Positions 6,181-43,037 of a DNA stretch of 44,500 bases are shown here, piece by piece; position 1 is the stretch's first letter, and every line of letters begins with the position of its first letter. Origin of the DNA: a virus; the IMG/VR virus record IMGVR_UViG_3300025168_000167, positions 1 through 44,500 of that record, one strand, 5' to 3'. The notes under the pieces were generated by a model. The model saw only the letters and a program-made list of their open reading frames with translations. It had not been told where the DNA came from and did not search any database. Position numbers and translations under genes: made by a program.

Positions 6181-9100
6181 ACTAACGAACCAATACCGCT
6201 TCTGCGTCGTTGAATAGCTTGCCCTGTAGAATCAAATGGAAATAACTCTTCAAAGTTAGCAGTCGGTTGCTGTTGTTGAGTTGCTGCTATTCCTTGAGGG
6301 GCAGGATCTGGTGCTGGTGCGGAAGCTTGCCCACTGGGGGAAGGATTTAAAGTAAAAGGCCTCATGTTTTGATTAGGGTCGTCTTGAGGAACAGGGTACT
6401 GAAATTGTGGGGTCACTGGTTGTGCTTGAGTTGGAGCCGGAGCAACGACTTCTGTTACTTCTTCAGTTTCTATGGGTGTATCTAATCCACCAGTCAATTG
6501 CTGAGTTCCTAGAATAACTCCCGCAGGTACTCCTCTTTGAAAAAAGAAATCTGTAGCTGCTGCTCTTGGTCTTGCAAGAGGAAGAGCTGTTTGCCCTGCG
6601 GGAATAGCTTCTGCGGGAGCATTTTTCATCATTTCTCTAGCAAACGCAGGGTTAGTTAAAGCTTCGTTTAAAACAGCCTCATACCTTGCACTAGCTCCAC
6701 TGTTTATTGCTCTAGCCGTGAAATAAGCTAAAGCAGTCCGAAAACCAATACGGCCTTCCTGCACTGCAATAAATCTAGCCGAAGCTCCGGGAATACTTGT
6801 ACCCACGGCCTTGTTTACTTTGTCGATAAAAGTGTTGCCTTGACCAGACAGACCACTCCAAGCTATGTCTCCTCTTTCATTTTTAGGGAGAACCGTAGCT
6901 ACCCTGTCTGCAAAATCAGCGAGTAACTGGATTTGATCTGTGTGTTCGCGACCCAGAGCCTCATCTAACATTGCTCTGTTCTTTTTGTTAGAAATCCATC
7001 TTTTAAAATTTTGTGGATTATTTATTATAGAACCAGTAGAACCACCCGCAATAGGGTCAGTTGGAAAAACTCTTCTGTAAACAGAGTCTAAAACTGCTTG
7101 ATTAAATTGTTGGGTAACACCTTGGTCAGCAGCCGCTTGTCTTGCTTGGCTCAAAGTTGCTAGATTGTTTGAATTAACTAATTGATCAATAACCTCTGTT
7201 TCTGTAAGGTTCTCATCATCAAACCTGCTCATTGTTCTTCTGAATTTATTCCTGTTTATTTGATTACTTCTATTAGTAAGATCAGCCATGCGAGCAGACA
7301 ATTGTTCTTCTGCTTTTGCTATATTGAGGAAAGTATCAGTAAGCCCTAGTTCTTTTATGACAGCATCATTATCATTTATGAAAGTTTGTAATTTAGTTCC
7401 ATCAACAGTTCCATCAGATTTTACAACAGACCTGCTTGTTTTGTCGAAAAAAGCATTACGCAAGTTATTCATGGCTGTATCTTCAGCCCCTAGAATGTTT
7501 TTAAACGCACGTATTCCCTGCAAATCATTTAAAAACTGATTAGCTACGTTTTCTGCTCCTGTTTGATAAATAGGTTGGGTTGCACTCCCACCAGCTCTCT
7601 GGCGTACATTGATCATAATTTGGTTTTCGAAAGGTCCGGCCACGTTTGTTTTATACCAATCAATGTAGTCTAAATATTTTTTACCTGTGGATGAACCAAA
7701 TTGAGATCCTGTAGCTAAGGCAGGGGAAGTGACTCCAGGAGTCCTGTTGGGAGCAGTAACACCACTACCAAATTCATCCCACATGTTTGCAAAGACTTTT
7801 AACCTACCTGCACCATTACTATCTTGATTATTGTAAAGTCTATTGATACTCGTTGTTAAATCTTCACGCACATTTTTCCAATCTTGAAAAGAAAGTCTAA
7901 ACTCATCTCCTTCTTGTGCCGCTTTTCTAAAAACTCTTTTTATTTCATCAGGTAACATATCAGCTGTCATCGAATTAAACCCCGCTACGGGTAAAAATTC
8001 GTCTTGTACTGTTTGAGAAAACCTTTGCCAATCTGCTGCTGAACCTAATTGGTCACCACCTGTATCTTTATTTATTCCTAACTCGTCAGCTTTTGCTTGT
8101 GCTCTTTCAAATTGTAGGTTCCTAGCCTCGTCTATCTTTGACCTTAACTCAGCCCCTGTTGCATCTCTATTGCTTTGGTTAAATCCGGGAACAAGATCTT
8201 CTAGTTGAGTGGTTAATTCACCCAATTCATTTCTTGCACCACTGTTTAGTGCAGCCACTTCATCTTTAAAAGCATGAACTACCGTAGCTGCCGAACCCGC
8301 TTCACCGCCCATACCCACTTGAATACTTAATGTATCGTCGTAGTAATTTTGTATAACATTTAAAATATCATTGGTATTATCTATTTCAGATTGAACAGCT
8401 TGGTCTCCAGATTTCATGAGAGCCATTCTGGTACGTGCCGTAGTTAAGGGGTCTTGAAGTTGTGCTGCTACGGACATTGGTACAATTCCATCTGGGAAAA
8501 ACTTACCAAACTCTTCTTGAATAGCTTCATTTATTCTTTGATTATCAGCGTATCGTGGGTCAGATCTAGCTCTTTCCAGAGTTTCATTTACTTGTTGTCT
8601 GGCAGCGGCTGATTCTTCTGCCCTTGCTACATTACCTGTTCCTTCTTCTGCCACCTGTCTTGCTGCGTTCATGTCATCAGCAACACCTACTGTACCCCCA
8701 CGTAACTTATTACCTATCCACCTAGTAGGGCTAGAATTCCAAATACCTCTAGCTGCACCCATAACGAAAGGAGCAGCAAACGGAGCAATTAATCCTCCCG
8801 TTAGGCCGGAAGTCCCGTACACTTCTTGTTCTATACCCGCACCTAGACCACTAGCCGCACCAAAACCTATTTCTGTGCGACCTGCCCCACCAAAAGTTCC
8901 AGGAGCAGCCCTGTAAGGAGCCAGGAGCATTTCTTTTAGCTTTCCGGGAACAGTTGTAGCTGCAAATTGACCTTGAGCCTTACCTGTTACTGGATTAACT
9001 GCTGCACGAGGTAATCCCCCAACAGTTTGAGAAGGACCAACAAATGCAGACATTTGAGCTGTTCCTGTTCCTGTGTCTGCGCCTACTCCCGCTCTCACGG

Positions 9101-9608
9101 CTTTGCTGGCTTTGCTGGCTTTTGCCATTGAATTCAAAGCACTTGCAAAAGGGATAGCCAAAGCAGCGAACTCCGTTGTTCGTTCTATTACATTACCTAT
9201 GCCACTGCCTGTTCCTAAATCTTCTCCCCGCCCTATGGAAAGGAGACCTAACGCTAATGGTTCTGCTTCTTCGTAACTACCGGAACGCAATACCCGATCA
9301 AAATAATCTCTAGTGTAGGTTCCGCGCTCTAACCCTTGCATATTTTCTGCTTTTCTTAACGCGAGATTTAAAGCTGTGTCAGGCAACAACGCCAACCCTT
9401 TTACCAACCCACCAACAGCATCTTGTGCTCCTGCCACAACACCATAATCTCCCCCGCGTTTTTGGGCTTTTACAGAAAGATCTGGAGTTTGTACTTGAGG
9501 TACAGTGCGCTCTTCGGGGGCAACTAATTTATCCATATCCGCAGTGAGATTTTGAATACCACCACGCTCAGGTTGTAAAGGAATAGGCTTAGGAGGAATA
9601 AGAGGCAT
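6177..9608 (-). CDS. Very large virion-associated protein, candidate internal/ejection protein
   Basis: A 1143-aa protein rich in Ala, Gln, Asn and Gly. The N-terminus is proline-rich (PLIPPKPIPLQPERG). It has a hydrophobic stretch near residues 150-165, long helical regions rich in EEA, ARQ and NQ repeats from about 310 to 950, and a disordered Pro/Gln-rich tail (about 1040-1120). No enzymatic motif was found. Size, composition and position at the distal end of the structural block, next to other large proteins of the same style, fit podovirus internal virion proteins that are ejected with the DNA. It overlaps the next gene by one base as TAATG at 9608 and is convergent with the SNF2 gene. 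Function is inferred from context only. Confidence 0.65.
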   Translation of the reverse strand: MPLIPPKPIPLQPERGGIQNLTADMDKLVAPEERTVPQVQTPDLSVKAQKRGGDYGVVAGAQDAVGGLVKGLALLPDTALNLALRKAENMQGLERGTYTRDYFDRVLRSGSYEEAEPLALGLLSIGRGEDLGTGSGIGNVIERTTEFAALAIPFASALNSMAKASKASKAVRAGVGADTGTGTAQMSAFVGPSQTVGGLPRAAVNPVTGKAQGQFAATTVPGKLKEMLLAPYRAAPGTFGGAGRTEIGFGAASGLGAGIEQEVYGTSGLTGGLIAPFAAPFVMGAARGIWNSSPTRWIGNKLRGGTVGVADDMNAARQVAEEGTGNVARAEESAAARQQVNETLERARSDPRYADNQRINEAIQEEFGKFFPDGIVPMSVAAQLQDPLTTARTRMALMKSGDQAVQSEIDNTNDILNVIQNYYDDTLSIQVGMGGEAGSAATVVHAFKDEVAALNSGARNELGELTTQLEDLVPGFNQSNRDATGAELRSKIDEARNLQFERAQAKADELGINKDTGGDQLGSAADWQRFSQTVQDEFLPVAGFNSMTADMLPDEIKRVFRKAAQEGDEFRLSFQDWKNVREDLTTSINRLYNNQDSNGAGRLKVFANMWDEFGSGVTAPNRTPGVTSPALATGSQFGSSTGKKYLDYIDWYKTNVAGPFENQIMINVRQRAGGSATQPIYQTGAENVANQFLNDLQGIRAFKNILGAEDTAMNNLRNAFFDKTSRSVVKSDGTVDGTKLQTFINDNDAVIKELGLTDTFLNIAKAEEQLSARMADLTNRSNQINRNKFRRTMSRFDDENLTETEVIDQLVNSNNLATLSQARQAAADQGVTQQFNQAVLDSVYRRVFPTDPIAGGSTGSIINNPQNFKRWISNKKNRAMLDEALGREHTDQIQLLADFADRVATVLPKNERGDIAWSGLSGQGNTFIDKVNKAVGTSIPGASARFIAVQEGRIGFRTALAYFTARAINSGASARYEAVLNEALTNPAFAREMMKNAPAEAIPAGQTALPLARPRAAATDFFFQRGVPAGVILGTQQLTGGLDTPIETEEVTEVVAPAPTQAQPVTPQFQYPVPQDDPNQNMRPFTLNPSPSGQASAPAPDPAPQGIAATQQQQPTANFEELFPFDSTGQAIQRRRSGIGSLV

Positions 9609-32010: not shown

Positions 32011-32756
32011 TAATAGGTAACGCCACGATCTTGAGCAGTCAAAATGTAATCAAATCCCGCACTCTTGGTTCCCGTTGCATCTCCAGTCACAGAAATAACA
32101 GCAGCCGTCATTAAAGCAGTAGGAATATTAGTAGTGTGAGTACCTACTTTTTTACGGTTTAAAAAATACTCAACAACATCAGTTCCATTGGTAGCAGCAC
32201 CCTTAGTAGCCACAAAACCCGCAGTGACATAGGTTCCGTCAGTAAGGTTATGAGCAGCAGCTAATTCGGTTTCTGTTTCAGTATCACCGGATTCAGAAAT
32301 CAAACGAGTAAGCGAAGAACCATCATCTAACTGAAAACCTATTCTGTTAGAGCTAAGAAAACCATTTTCAGGGTGAGTAGCAAAATTTTCACATAGGCCA
32401 ACAAACACATCCATTTGTCCCACACCTGATCCCGCAGTCGAATTTACATAAAATCTACTTTCGAAATAAAGTTTTTCACCAGAAGTGGTCGGGAGCTGAA
32501 AAACCTCGTTCCCTTGGAGTGAACCACCATCATTATCAGTGGTAGCAGCCGAAGTGATTAACGCAACTCCAAACGCAGTATCCGCAGCGATAGCCACAGT
32601 AGCCCCAGAGTCTTTTACAACAGTCCATCCGCTGTCGAATTCATAAATAAAATCATCATAAAGAATGGCTTGGTCAGGCCACACGCCAATTTGTAGGTTT
32701 TCTAAACCCTTACGTGCAGCAGAATAGAGGATAGGACCTTTGAAATGAGTAGCCAT
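32010..32756 (-). CDS. Lectin-like virion protein
   Basis: A 248-aa beta-rich protein. The order LYDDFIYEFDSGWTVVKDSG, EKLYFESRFYVNSTA and VEYFLNRKKVGTHTTNIPTA resembles a jelly-roll or concanavalin-like domain often found as minor capsid or fibre proteins. It is the first gene after the capsid terminator. Likely on the virion surface. No catalytic residues can be assigned. Confidence 0.65.
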   Translation of the reverse strand: MATHFKGPILYSAARKGLENLQIGVWPDQAILYDDFIYEFDSGWTVVKDSGATVAIAADTAFGVALITSAATTDNDGGSLQGNEVFQLPTTSGEKLYFESRFYVNSTAGSGVGQMDVFVGLCENFATHPENGFLSSNRIGFQLDDGSSLTRLISESGDTETETELAAAHNLTDGTYVTAGFVATKGAATNGTDVVEYFLNRKKVGTHTTNIPTALMTAAVISVTGDATGTKSAGFDYILTAQDRGVTY

Positions 32757-32824
32757 AGTGTTCTCCTGTCGTGGCTAGTGTCTATTACGGGATGCAATAG
32801 TCAGGTGACGGGAGAACTATACTC

Positions 32825-41323: not shown

Positions 41324-41351
41324 CCGCTTTGTAAAAGTTTTAAGGTAGCTG

Positions 41352-41915
41352 TTACTTAATAGTAACAGCTGGTTTAACTACCAATTGTACTAAGGGCTTG
41401 CCAAAAAACGCATGCTTTTTGGTTGCGCTATTAGTACCGCTTAGCAACATGCAAAGTGTATTACCACTTGCAATGTTACCCGTAATAATTTTACCACCAC
41501 TTGCGGTAACTGCTTTGGCTATAACGCCAAGGTTATTGCTTGCACCATTGCCGCCAATAGTTGCAAGTTGCATTGTTTTAAATGCCTTGCGCTTATTGGT
41601 TGCTATAGTGCTGGCTTGCACACCTTGCAAGTAGCACTGTAACTGGTGGCCGCGCGTACCAGTGTTAGTGCAAAACATGCCACTTGCATGCTTAACCCAA
41701 TTAGCTGGCGTAATGCCTAAACTAATAAAGTAAGCAGTAGGCTGCACAATAATATTGGCTAAGCTACCCGCTGCATGCTTAGCAGCAAATTGCGCTACAC
41801 TTGCGCCAGTACACCAACCGCTAGTAGGTGCTATATATACAGCACCTGCATTTAAGTTGGCTATGCCAGCTGTTTTAACAGTGCTGGTCTTAACTGTATT
41901 TTTACCTTTTTGCAT
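41352..41915 (-). CDS. Unrecognised protein A, encoded without GA/TC and lacking all acidic residues
   Basis: A 187-aa basic protein that I do not recognise. From residue 18 it aligns without gaps to the diverging gene at 42370-42945, 123 of 170 identical by hand. The most conserved block is SGMFCTNTGTRGHQLQC with two cysteines. A third cysteine lies in NTLCMLLSG. It contains no Asp and no Glu, and each of the six acidic positions of the sister protein is replaced (D to Q, E to A, E to A, D to Q, D to G, E to Q). All Ser codons are AGT or AGC and all Gly codons are GGT or GGC. A Shine-Dalgarno GGGA sits 7 bases before the ATG. No signal peptide or membrane helix. Its own promoter region and terminator suggest a stand-alone unit. 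Function unknown. Confidence 0.75.
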   Translation of the reverse strand: MQKGKNTVKTSTVKTAGIANLNAGAVYIAPTSGWCTGASVAQFAAKHAAGSLANIIVQPTAYFISLGITPANWVKHASGMFCTNTGTRGHQLQCYLQGVQASTIATNKRKAFKTMQLATIGGNGASNNLGVIAKAVTASGGKIITGNIASGNTLCMLLSGTNSATKKHAFFGKPLVQLVVKPAVTIK

Positions 41916-41961
41916 AATATTTTCCCGTGTGTTTATTTACAAAGCAGGGTTATTTAACCAT

Positions 41962-42006
41962 TTAACACTTATTAACACAAGCAATACTGGTGTTAAATTG
42001 TGTTAA
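41962..42006. promoter_or_regulatory. Operator-like array with 10-bp period upstream of gene A
   Basis: TTAACAC occurs at 41962-41968 and 41972-41978. Its inverse GTGTTAA occurs at 41990-41996 and 42000-42006. Each pair has a 10-bp period, one helical turn, and the two pairs face each other around 41984. The array lies 47-91 bp upstream of the ATG of gene A and looks like a cooperative repressor or activator site. Confidence 0.65.
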
Positions 42007-42147
42007 ATTGTAACAAAAACACTGGTTATTTATACAGTATAAATACTAGTAATATATAAAAAGCAATTAATATAAGCATGCCCGTACATTACGGCAGCGA
42101 GTAGCGAAGAGTTAGCACAAGATGTTTTCAGCCAGGATCAGCTAAAA

Positions 42148-42177
42148 GAGACGAGACGAGACGAGACGAGACGAGAT
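42148..42177. repeat. GAGAC pentanucleotide tandem repeat
   Basis: Five perfect GAGAC units (42148-42172) followed by GAGAT. It begins 50 bp after the GA-free cassette ends, a sharp change from zero GA to a GA-rich array. The 5-bp period puts alternate units on the same DNA face. Confidence 0.85.
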
Positions 42178-42272
42178 GACTAGATTATACTATGTATATG
42201 AGTATATATACCCATACTGCATAAACTCTAGTCTTTTCTTCTCCGGGTAGGGATCCCCTCTCTAGGTAGGAA

Positions 42273-42288
42273 ATTGACGGTCTGCAAA
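42273..42288. repeat. 16-bp direct repeat, left copy
   Basis: ATTGACGGTCTGCAAA matches ATTGACGATCGGCAAA at 43007-43022 at 14 of 16 positions. The two copies flank gene B and its terminator. Confidence 0.6.
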
Positions 42289-42302
42289 ATGGAAGTCAGT
42301 AC

Positions 42303-42330
42303 TTGTGTTAAGATGTGGTATATGTATAAT
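42303..42330 (+). promoter_or_regulatory. Sigma70-like promoter of gene B
   Basis: TTGTGT (42303-42308), a 16-bp spacer and a perfect TATAAT (42325-42330). Transcription would begin near 42337, which is where a perfect hairpin begins. Confidence 0.65.
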
Positions 42331-42336
42331 GAACTA

Positions 42337-42357
42337 ATGCTTAGGGGTACTAAGCAT
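42337..42357 (+). promoter_or_regulatory. 5'-terminal mRNA hairpin of gene B
   Basis: ATGCTTAG (42337-42344) pairs perfectly with CTAAGCAT (42350-42357) around a GGGTA loop. It would lie at the very 5' end of the transcript, 12 bases before the ATG and just before the GGGAC ribosome site. Such 5' stem-loops protect transcripts from 5'-end-dependent decay. The stem also overlaps the 13-bp inverted repeat. Confidence 0.7.
42339..42351. repeat. 13-bp inverted repeat, left arm
   Basis: GCTTAGGGGTACT is the exact reverse complement of AGTACCCCTAAGC at 42958-42970. The arms lie in the 5' and 3' untranslated regions of gene B. Confidence 0.85.
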
Positions 42358-42369
42358 GGGACTTTATCA

Positions 42370-42945
42370 ATGGTTAAATCAAACAACACAGCAACGCCAA
42401 AATCTGTAAAAACTTCTGGCACTACCGTGAAAATAGCAAACCTGAATCCTGGTGCTGTTTACACACTTCCTAAATCTGGTTGGGCAACAGGCAGTAGCAT
42501 TTTGGATTTCGCTACTAACAATGCTGCGGGTAGTCTGGCCAATATAACTGTACGGCCTACTGAGTTTTTTAATTCATTAGGCATTAATCCAAGCAATTGG
42601 GTTAAGCATGAGTCAGGTATGTTCTGCACCAATACAGGGACTCGCGGTCACCAACTGCAATGTCCTGTTTTTGGTGTACAAAAATCCACCATCGCAACCA
42701 ACAAAAGCAAAGCCTACATGAAAATGGATCTTGCAACAGTTGGTGGTAAGGACGCAAGCTTTAACCTTGGAGTTATTGCTACGGCAATCAAGGCGTCCGG
42801 TGGGAAAATCACAACTGGTAATGTAAAGACTGGGAATACTCTTTGCATGTTGTTGTCAGGTAGCAACACCGTTCACAAAAAGCATGCCTTTTTCGGCAAG
42901 CCTTTAGTGGAGTTAGTTGTTACACCAGCAGTCAAAATCAAGTAG
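42370..42945 (+). CDS. Unrecognised protein B, sister of the GA-free protein A
   Basis: A 191-aa basic protein starting MVKSNNTATPKSVKTSGTTV. The ATG at 42370 is chosen because GGGAC lies 7 bases upstream and matches the start of protein A. An in-frame ATG 32 codons earlier would fall upstream of the TATAAT box. It shares the CTNTGTRGHQLQC block and the C-terminal HAFFGKPLVELVV with A. It has normal codon use (mixed TCN and AGY serine) and six acidic residues. It has its own promoter, 5' hairpin and terminator, and transcribes away from gene A. No known domain, signal or membrane segment. The conserved Cys/His residues could bind metal, but that is speculative. Confidence 0.75.
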   Translation: MVKSNNTATPKSVKTSGTTVKIANLNPGAVYTLPKSGWATGSSILDFATNNAAGSLANITVRPTEFFNSLGINPSNWVKHESGMFCTNTGTRGHQLQCPVFGVQKSTIATNKSKAYMKMDLATVGGKDASFNLGVIATAIKASGGKITTGNVKTGNTLCMLLSGSNTVHKKHAFFGKPLVELVVTPAVKIK

Positions 42946-42957
42946 TTTTTATTAATC

Positions 42958-42970
42958 AGTACCCCTAAGC
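42958..42970. repeat. 13-bp inverted repeat, right arm
   Basis: AGTACCCCTAAGC, the exact inverse of 42339-42351. It lies 13 bp after the gene B stop and directly before the terminator stem. Confidence 0.85.
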
Positions 42971-42971
42971 T

Positions 42972-42996
42972 AATCCCCCCTCGCGGGGGATTTTTT
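42972..42996 (+). terminator. Strong terminator of gene B
   Basis: AATCCCCC (42972-42979) pairs with GGGGGATT (42985-42992) around CTCGC, followed by a run of T. It is a classic rho-independent terminator on the plus strand. Confidence 0.9.
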
Positions 42997-43006
42997 ATGC
43001 CTGTCC

Positions 43007-43022
43007 ATTGACGATCGGCAAA
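43007..43022. repeat. 16-bp direct repeat, right copy
   Basis: ATTGACGATCGGCAAA, see the left copy at 42273-42288. The first of the three phased GATC sites lies within it. Confidence 0.6.
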
Positions 43023-43037
43023 GATCTATAATGATCA
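43012..43037. promoter_or_regulatory. Three GATC palindromes with exact 10-bp period
   Basis: CGATCG (43012-43017), AGATCT (43022-43027) and TGATCA (43032-43037) are centred exactly 10 bp apart, so the GATC cores lie on one face of the helix. The parS-like site follows at once (centre 11 bp further). A perfect TATAAT hexamer (43027-43032) overlaps, but no -35 at normal spacing was found. Confidence 0.7.

Follow-up and report, generated by a model that had tools for sequence, protein, structure and literature searches.

The two copies of a perfect 13-bp inverted repeat that bracket gene B in this viral sequence most likely form, as comparison with related sequences suggests, the two strands of a helix joining the start and the end of the gene B mRNA. 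Complementarity persists despite changing arm sequences in gene B, in gene A, which is its paralogue, and in closely related genes, and we consider it very likely that the end-to-end helix is a selected feature. The full explanation, in which the mRNA is closed at its ends with stabilisation as the main effect, we favour with moderate confidence. Because compensatory changes preserve the pairing throughout a phage gene family, including two paralogues with different arms, end-closure becomes testable by comparison and by mutation.

The window, i.e., the whole stretch of 44.5 kb that was analysed, is a virus record whose terminase large subunit shares 58–64% identity with its counterparts in HTVC023P-type pelagiphages and in two further phages. 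Among named phages, no near relatives were found by DNA and none by the gene B protein. Genes A and B lie between terL and terS and are divergently transcribed, each preceded by a -10-like element and followed by a terminator-like hairpin. Gene B (42370–42945, plus strand) encodes a protein of 191 aa with a basic N-terminal tail, from a family of unknown function; gene A (41352–41915, minus strand, 187 aa) is its paralogue (69% identical).

The repeat around gene B is exact and lies in the untranslated regions at the positions originally predicted, with GCTTAGGGGTACT at 42339–42351 and its reverse complement AGTACCCCTAAGC at 42958–42970 (both plus strand). The 5′ arm begins 8 nt past a perfect TATAAT (42325–42330), near +2/+3 in the predicted transcript. 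The 3′ arm begins 12 nt past the stop codon and, as had been claimed, abuts the intrinsic terminator (42972–42997, plus strand), comprising a stem at 42972–42992 and a T run. The predicted promoter (42303–42330, plus strand) has a poor -35 element, TTGTGT (42303–42308, 3/6), separated from the -10 by a 16-nt spacer, and it was absent from the list of a stricter promoter scan, so the transcript start is a predicted one. The left arm is also included in an alternative local hairpin of 8 bp (ATGCTTAG-GGGTA-CTAAGCAT, 42337–42357, plus strand, −10.0 kcal/mol); the hairpin described in the original prediction is present, with a predicted 5′-terminal placement. An in-frame ATG (42337–42339) at the predicted start would permit a leaderless reading with 11 extra residues; it is kept in the related genome L002 and not in L010–L012. 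The gene B region had no Rfam family match at the gathering score.

Apart from the gene B pair, the window contains no perfect inverted repeat of at least 13 bp with arms no more than 800 bp apart. Arithmetic (44,500 × 800 / 4^13) gives an expectation of ~0.5 such pairs anywhere in the window, so the repeat is not significant by itself, and the case for gene B pairing therefore rests on relatives and not on the repeat. For the two gene B UTRs alone (75 × 59 positions), the chance expectation is ~7 × 10^-5.

Close A/B genes were sought by a terS search combined with an A/B profile search, and the distinct genomes carrying them were the window (with a near-copy, L001), L002, L008, L009, L010, L011, L012, L087 and L090. 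In 11 close genes, the 5′ leader is complementary to the 3′ trailer just before the terminator, over 8–16 nt and through five different arm sequences. Gene B of the window shares its arm type, GCTTAGGGGTACT, with gene B of L002, and gene B of L010, L011, L012 and L090 carries GTAGTGGCAAA(AA)TAG with a bulge or mismatch. The arm type of gene A is GCTTTGTAAA in the window and L002, GCTTTGTTAA in L008 and L009, and GCTTACTT, extended to CTTGCTTACTT, in L087. In the window, the 5′ arm of gene A (41936–41945, minus strand) sits at the predicted +1 and its 3′ arm, TTTACAAAGC (41326–41335, minus strand), stands directly ahead of the gene A terminator; paralogues A and B thus use different arm sequences in one genome.

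The original prediction held that the mRNA ends could close and named covariation in homologues as a check. Both points were borne out: each of the five arm sequences is complementary to its own partner, and with arms aligned from the first G, standard pairs occupy 57/60 cells and nine of the ten helix columns have changes on both sides, the column alignment of the gene B-type comparison being arbitrary because the whole arm is replaced there. Compensated changes occur at three positions when gene A is taken by itself. When the 3′ arms were re-assigned in all 720 possible ways, no arrangement other than the true one and its equivalent matched this degree of pairing, with arm types that are few, three of them (those of gene A) related to each other, and with genomes that are metagenome assemblies.

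In five paired groups represented by one gene each, pairing exceeded that of dinucleotide shuffles (p 0.005–0.015), and the same test gave p < 0.02 for 1/39 other genes of the window. None of 57 distant family members reached p < 0.02, and end-to-end pairing was rejected as a trait of the whole family. Across 43 representatives, own pairing was stronger than permuted pairing (p ~10^-4), with the signal coming from the close subfamily. A search of viral contigs with the hairpin 17-mer returned, beyond two kin contigs, a single match (L004), which lies in unrelated sequence and was taken as chance.

By covariation alone, a helix in RNA is indistinguishable from an inverted repeat in DNA; position and folding point to the former. 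In 11/11 genes the 5′ arm begins 6–8 nt past the -10 hexamer, no more than about two bases from the predicted start, and in the paired genes the 3′ arm lies between the stop codon and the terminator; the -35 elements of these genes are weak, and the transcript ends are predicted ones. Partition-function folding of whole predicted transcripts gave helix probabilities of 0.79–1.00, with the first eight nucleotides essentially always paired, and for gene B the end-to-end duplex (−22.9 kcal/mol) was stronger than the local hairpin.

In the mechanism we propose, the gene B transcript would pair by its first nucleotides with the stretch just before the terminator, closing the mRNA end to end; the duplex would bury its 5′ terminus and the terminator would cap its 3′ terminus. 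Burial of the 5′ end probably stabilises the transcript, as it would protect it from 5′-end-dependent decay and make it long-lived, and the ribosome binding site would stay outside the helix. In gene B, the weaker local hairpin probably forms first in transcription and would be displaced once the 3′ arm is made. A switch between a local hairpin and an end-to-end helix, as previously proposed, did not hold up as a general feature: it applies to gene B of the window and the identical leader arm of L002, and local folds in the remaining end-paired leaders reach only 0 to −4.9 kcal/mol.

Family members that lack the long helix have other structures at the 5′ end. The A-type genes of L010, L011, L012 and L090 show no long-range helix and carry a strong local leader hairpin (−11.6 to −21.8 kcal/mol). 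In most distant members, the -10 element is followed by a leader hairpin and then by a second one, the loop of which contains a conserved GTAGAAAGG (Shine-Dalgarno). Both hairpins covary, with both partners of one pair altered in 18/31 sequences; the first is indistinct in a few leaders, e.g., those of L022 and L026. These two-hairpin leaders, such as L038 8968–9040 and L043 2798–2870, had no match in Rfam and look like an undescribed RNA element. Local leader hairpins in members without the long helix are what a requirement for a double-stranded 5′ end would predict, and such a requirement would explain the end helix, the local hairpins and the distant leader hairpins alike. 5′-terminal stem-loops, such as that of ompA, stabilise mRNAs. 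The A/B family resembles ompA in that the 5′ end is held in a duplex, and distant members have leader hairpins of this kind, whereas in the close subfamily the partner strand comes from the other end of the mRNA.

Bacterial mRNAs with pairing UTRs are few, and a review (PMC7821165) names hbs, icaR and RNAIII. According to that review, a 14-nt interaction between the 5′ and 3′ UTRs of the Bacillus subtilis hbs mRNA protects it from RNase Y (Braun et al. 2017). As hbs is presented there, the two cases share a short helix (14 nt in hbs, 8–16 nt here) that joins both UTRs of a monocistronic mRNA. They differ, on the same account, in that the genes studied here are phage genes of an unrelated protein family, the 5′ arm is placed at the predicted first nucleotides, and compensating changes distinguish the arms of relatives and those of two paralogues in the same genome. 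Gene B has both the complementary 5′ and 3′ UTR segments and, from the covariation, pairing that appears to be kept by selection; by analogy, its mRNA is probably stabilised in an hbs-like manner.

A different effect of the same pairing would be repression, with the 3′ arm, acting in cis or in trans as an sRNA derived from the 3′ UTR, lowering expression by hindering translation or by creating an RNase III site. Such feedback has precedents: in Staphylococcus aureus icaR, the 3′ UTR pairs with the 5′ UTR of the same mRNA, covers the Shine-Dalgarno sequence and lowers translation (PMC3868564), and OppZ and CarZ are cases of autoregulation by 3′-UTR-derived sRNAs (PMC7398697). The genes described here share the complementary UTRs of icaR and, like OppZ/CarZ, have a transcript 3′ end complementary to the leader of their own gene or operon. 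The arms lie within ~20–33 nt of the start codon. Against the stabilisation reading, the fold leaves the ribosome binding site only moderately accessible (0.38–0.74 unpaired), and the edge of the helix could touch an initiating ribosome. However, the helix does not reach the Shine-Dalgarno-like stretch (gene B 42358–42361) in any of the 11 genes, unlike in icaR, and the 3′ UTR is short; pairing of the 3′ UTR with the Shine-Dalgarno region, as in icaR, was found in none of the 11. In comparison with OppZ/CarZ, the complementarity here runs end to end, with any separate 3′ fragment being hypothetical. The local leader hairpins of unpaired members also fit 5′-end protection better than feedback. 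We regard repression as rather unlikely and favour stabilisation through a buried 5′ end, because the Shine-Dalgarno-like stretch is left outside the helix.

Folding of the coding region was compared with codon shuffles that preserve the protein, codon counts and dinucleotides. For most family genes, z values were stronger under a simple synonymous codon shuffle, and the dinucleotide-preserving version was relied on. The A/B family had a mean z of −1.25 (n = 62) against −0.34 for terS and terL controls (n = 45), a signal that is suggestive and not proof because the controls scattered too. Eight of ten end-paired genes tested had z values of −1.8 to −5.3, gene A of the window and of L002 had −0.7 and −1.2, and the four A-type genes without end pairing were near 0. 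These calculations are suggestive of a compact mRNA. It is conceivable, if improbable, that the mRNA is a compact, end-closed, over-folded RNA recognised as a unit by its own basic-tailed protein or by the phage particle; if so, this terminase-linked family would make a self-recognising RNA–protein complex.

An explanation at the DNA level, in which the repeats serve a small mobile cassette as terminal repeats, recombination sites or protein-binding sites, would account for some features of the locus. The gene B unit is missing from L008 and L009, and terminal repeats of different elements would covary too. The comparison with these two genomes contradicts the earlier suggestion that the repeats are relics of an inserted cassette: the segment found in the window and not in L008 (~42129–43037) holds the promoter, both repeats and the terminator, and since it runs beyond both repeats, they are not its ends. 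As regards moron-type features, gene B shows presence or absence between related phages and a terminator, its promoter is predicted, and most relatives keep at least one copy of the family.

The comparison with L002 reveals exchange or rapid change of the coding region within constant flanks, as could also be expected of a cassette. L002 is almost the same phage, with DNA identities of 99.5% in the terL region and 99.2% in the endonuclease/terS region, and its coding regions are only 62% (gene B) and 50% (gene A) identical to those of the window. In the gene B flanks, 58/60 nt of the leader and 55/55 nt of the trailer are unchanged; in gene A, divergence extends to the trailer, where ACTTTTACAAAGC, the stretch containing the 3′ arm, is nevertheless retained. 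Gene A also has two allelic forms, one short and one long. These forms and the divergence of both genes (window 41352–42945 against L002 2016–3715) between phages with >99% identical flanks suggest allele exchange or strong diversifying selection. The sequence exchange between the window and L002 starts inside the gene and not at the repeats, the arms are phased to the -10 element and the terminator in 11 genes, and those of L010–L012 tolerate a bulge or mismatch, all of which speaks against a cassette, and we consider a DNA-level role highly improbable. A chance match is hardly credible for the window repeat: one perfect 13-bp pair against ~0.5 expected is unremarkable, but relatives carry different complementary arms at the same places and control genes are negative.

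The end-to-end helix belongs to a close subfamily of a larger group. Genes A and B are members of an undescribed, widespread family of phage proteins encoded beside the terminase genes of uncultivated phages. Among the fetched loci, the family comprises 92 distinct ORFs, which have a lysine-rich N-terminus and occur singly or in pairs near the terminase genes; its distant members are found in L013–L085, e.g., at 9026–9454 and 9850–10326 of L038. The gene A and gene B proteins had no match in Pfam or PHROGs, and a profile scan of bacterial genomes found no relatives. Two candidate homologues, HTVC027P_gp33 (highly expressed and located between terS and terL) and the 023Pt_psg01 protein, were unrelated by profile comparison. 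Structure prediction based on 12 sequences was poor (pLDDT 50), and a deeper prediction for a distant member gave a confident core (pLDDT 87). This core had no convincing structural match (best Foldseek E 0.41); an alignment with 8hkr (VIA Z 5.0 over 83 residues) was not regarded as meaningful.

Two minor observations concern other RNA structures. The second family copy in L048, L050, L070 and L085 has a trailer with a complete hairpin of the GGCTAGGGG..CCCCTAGCC type in the 3′ UTR, which resembles in sequence the two gene B arms split between the 5′ and 3′ ends. Elsewhere in the window, the minus strand at 32754–32806, just 5′ of a capsid-region gene, matched the Mu-gpT-DE RNA of Rfam (60 bits, E 1.5e-11).
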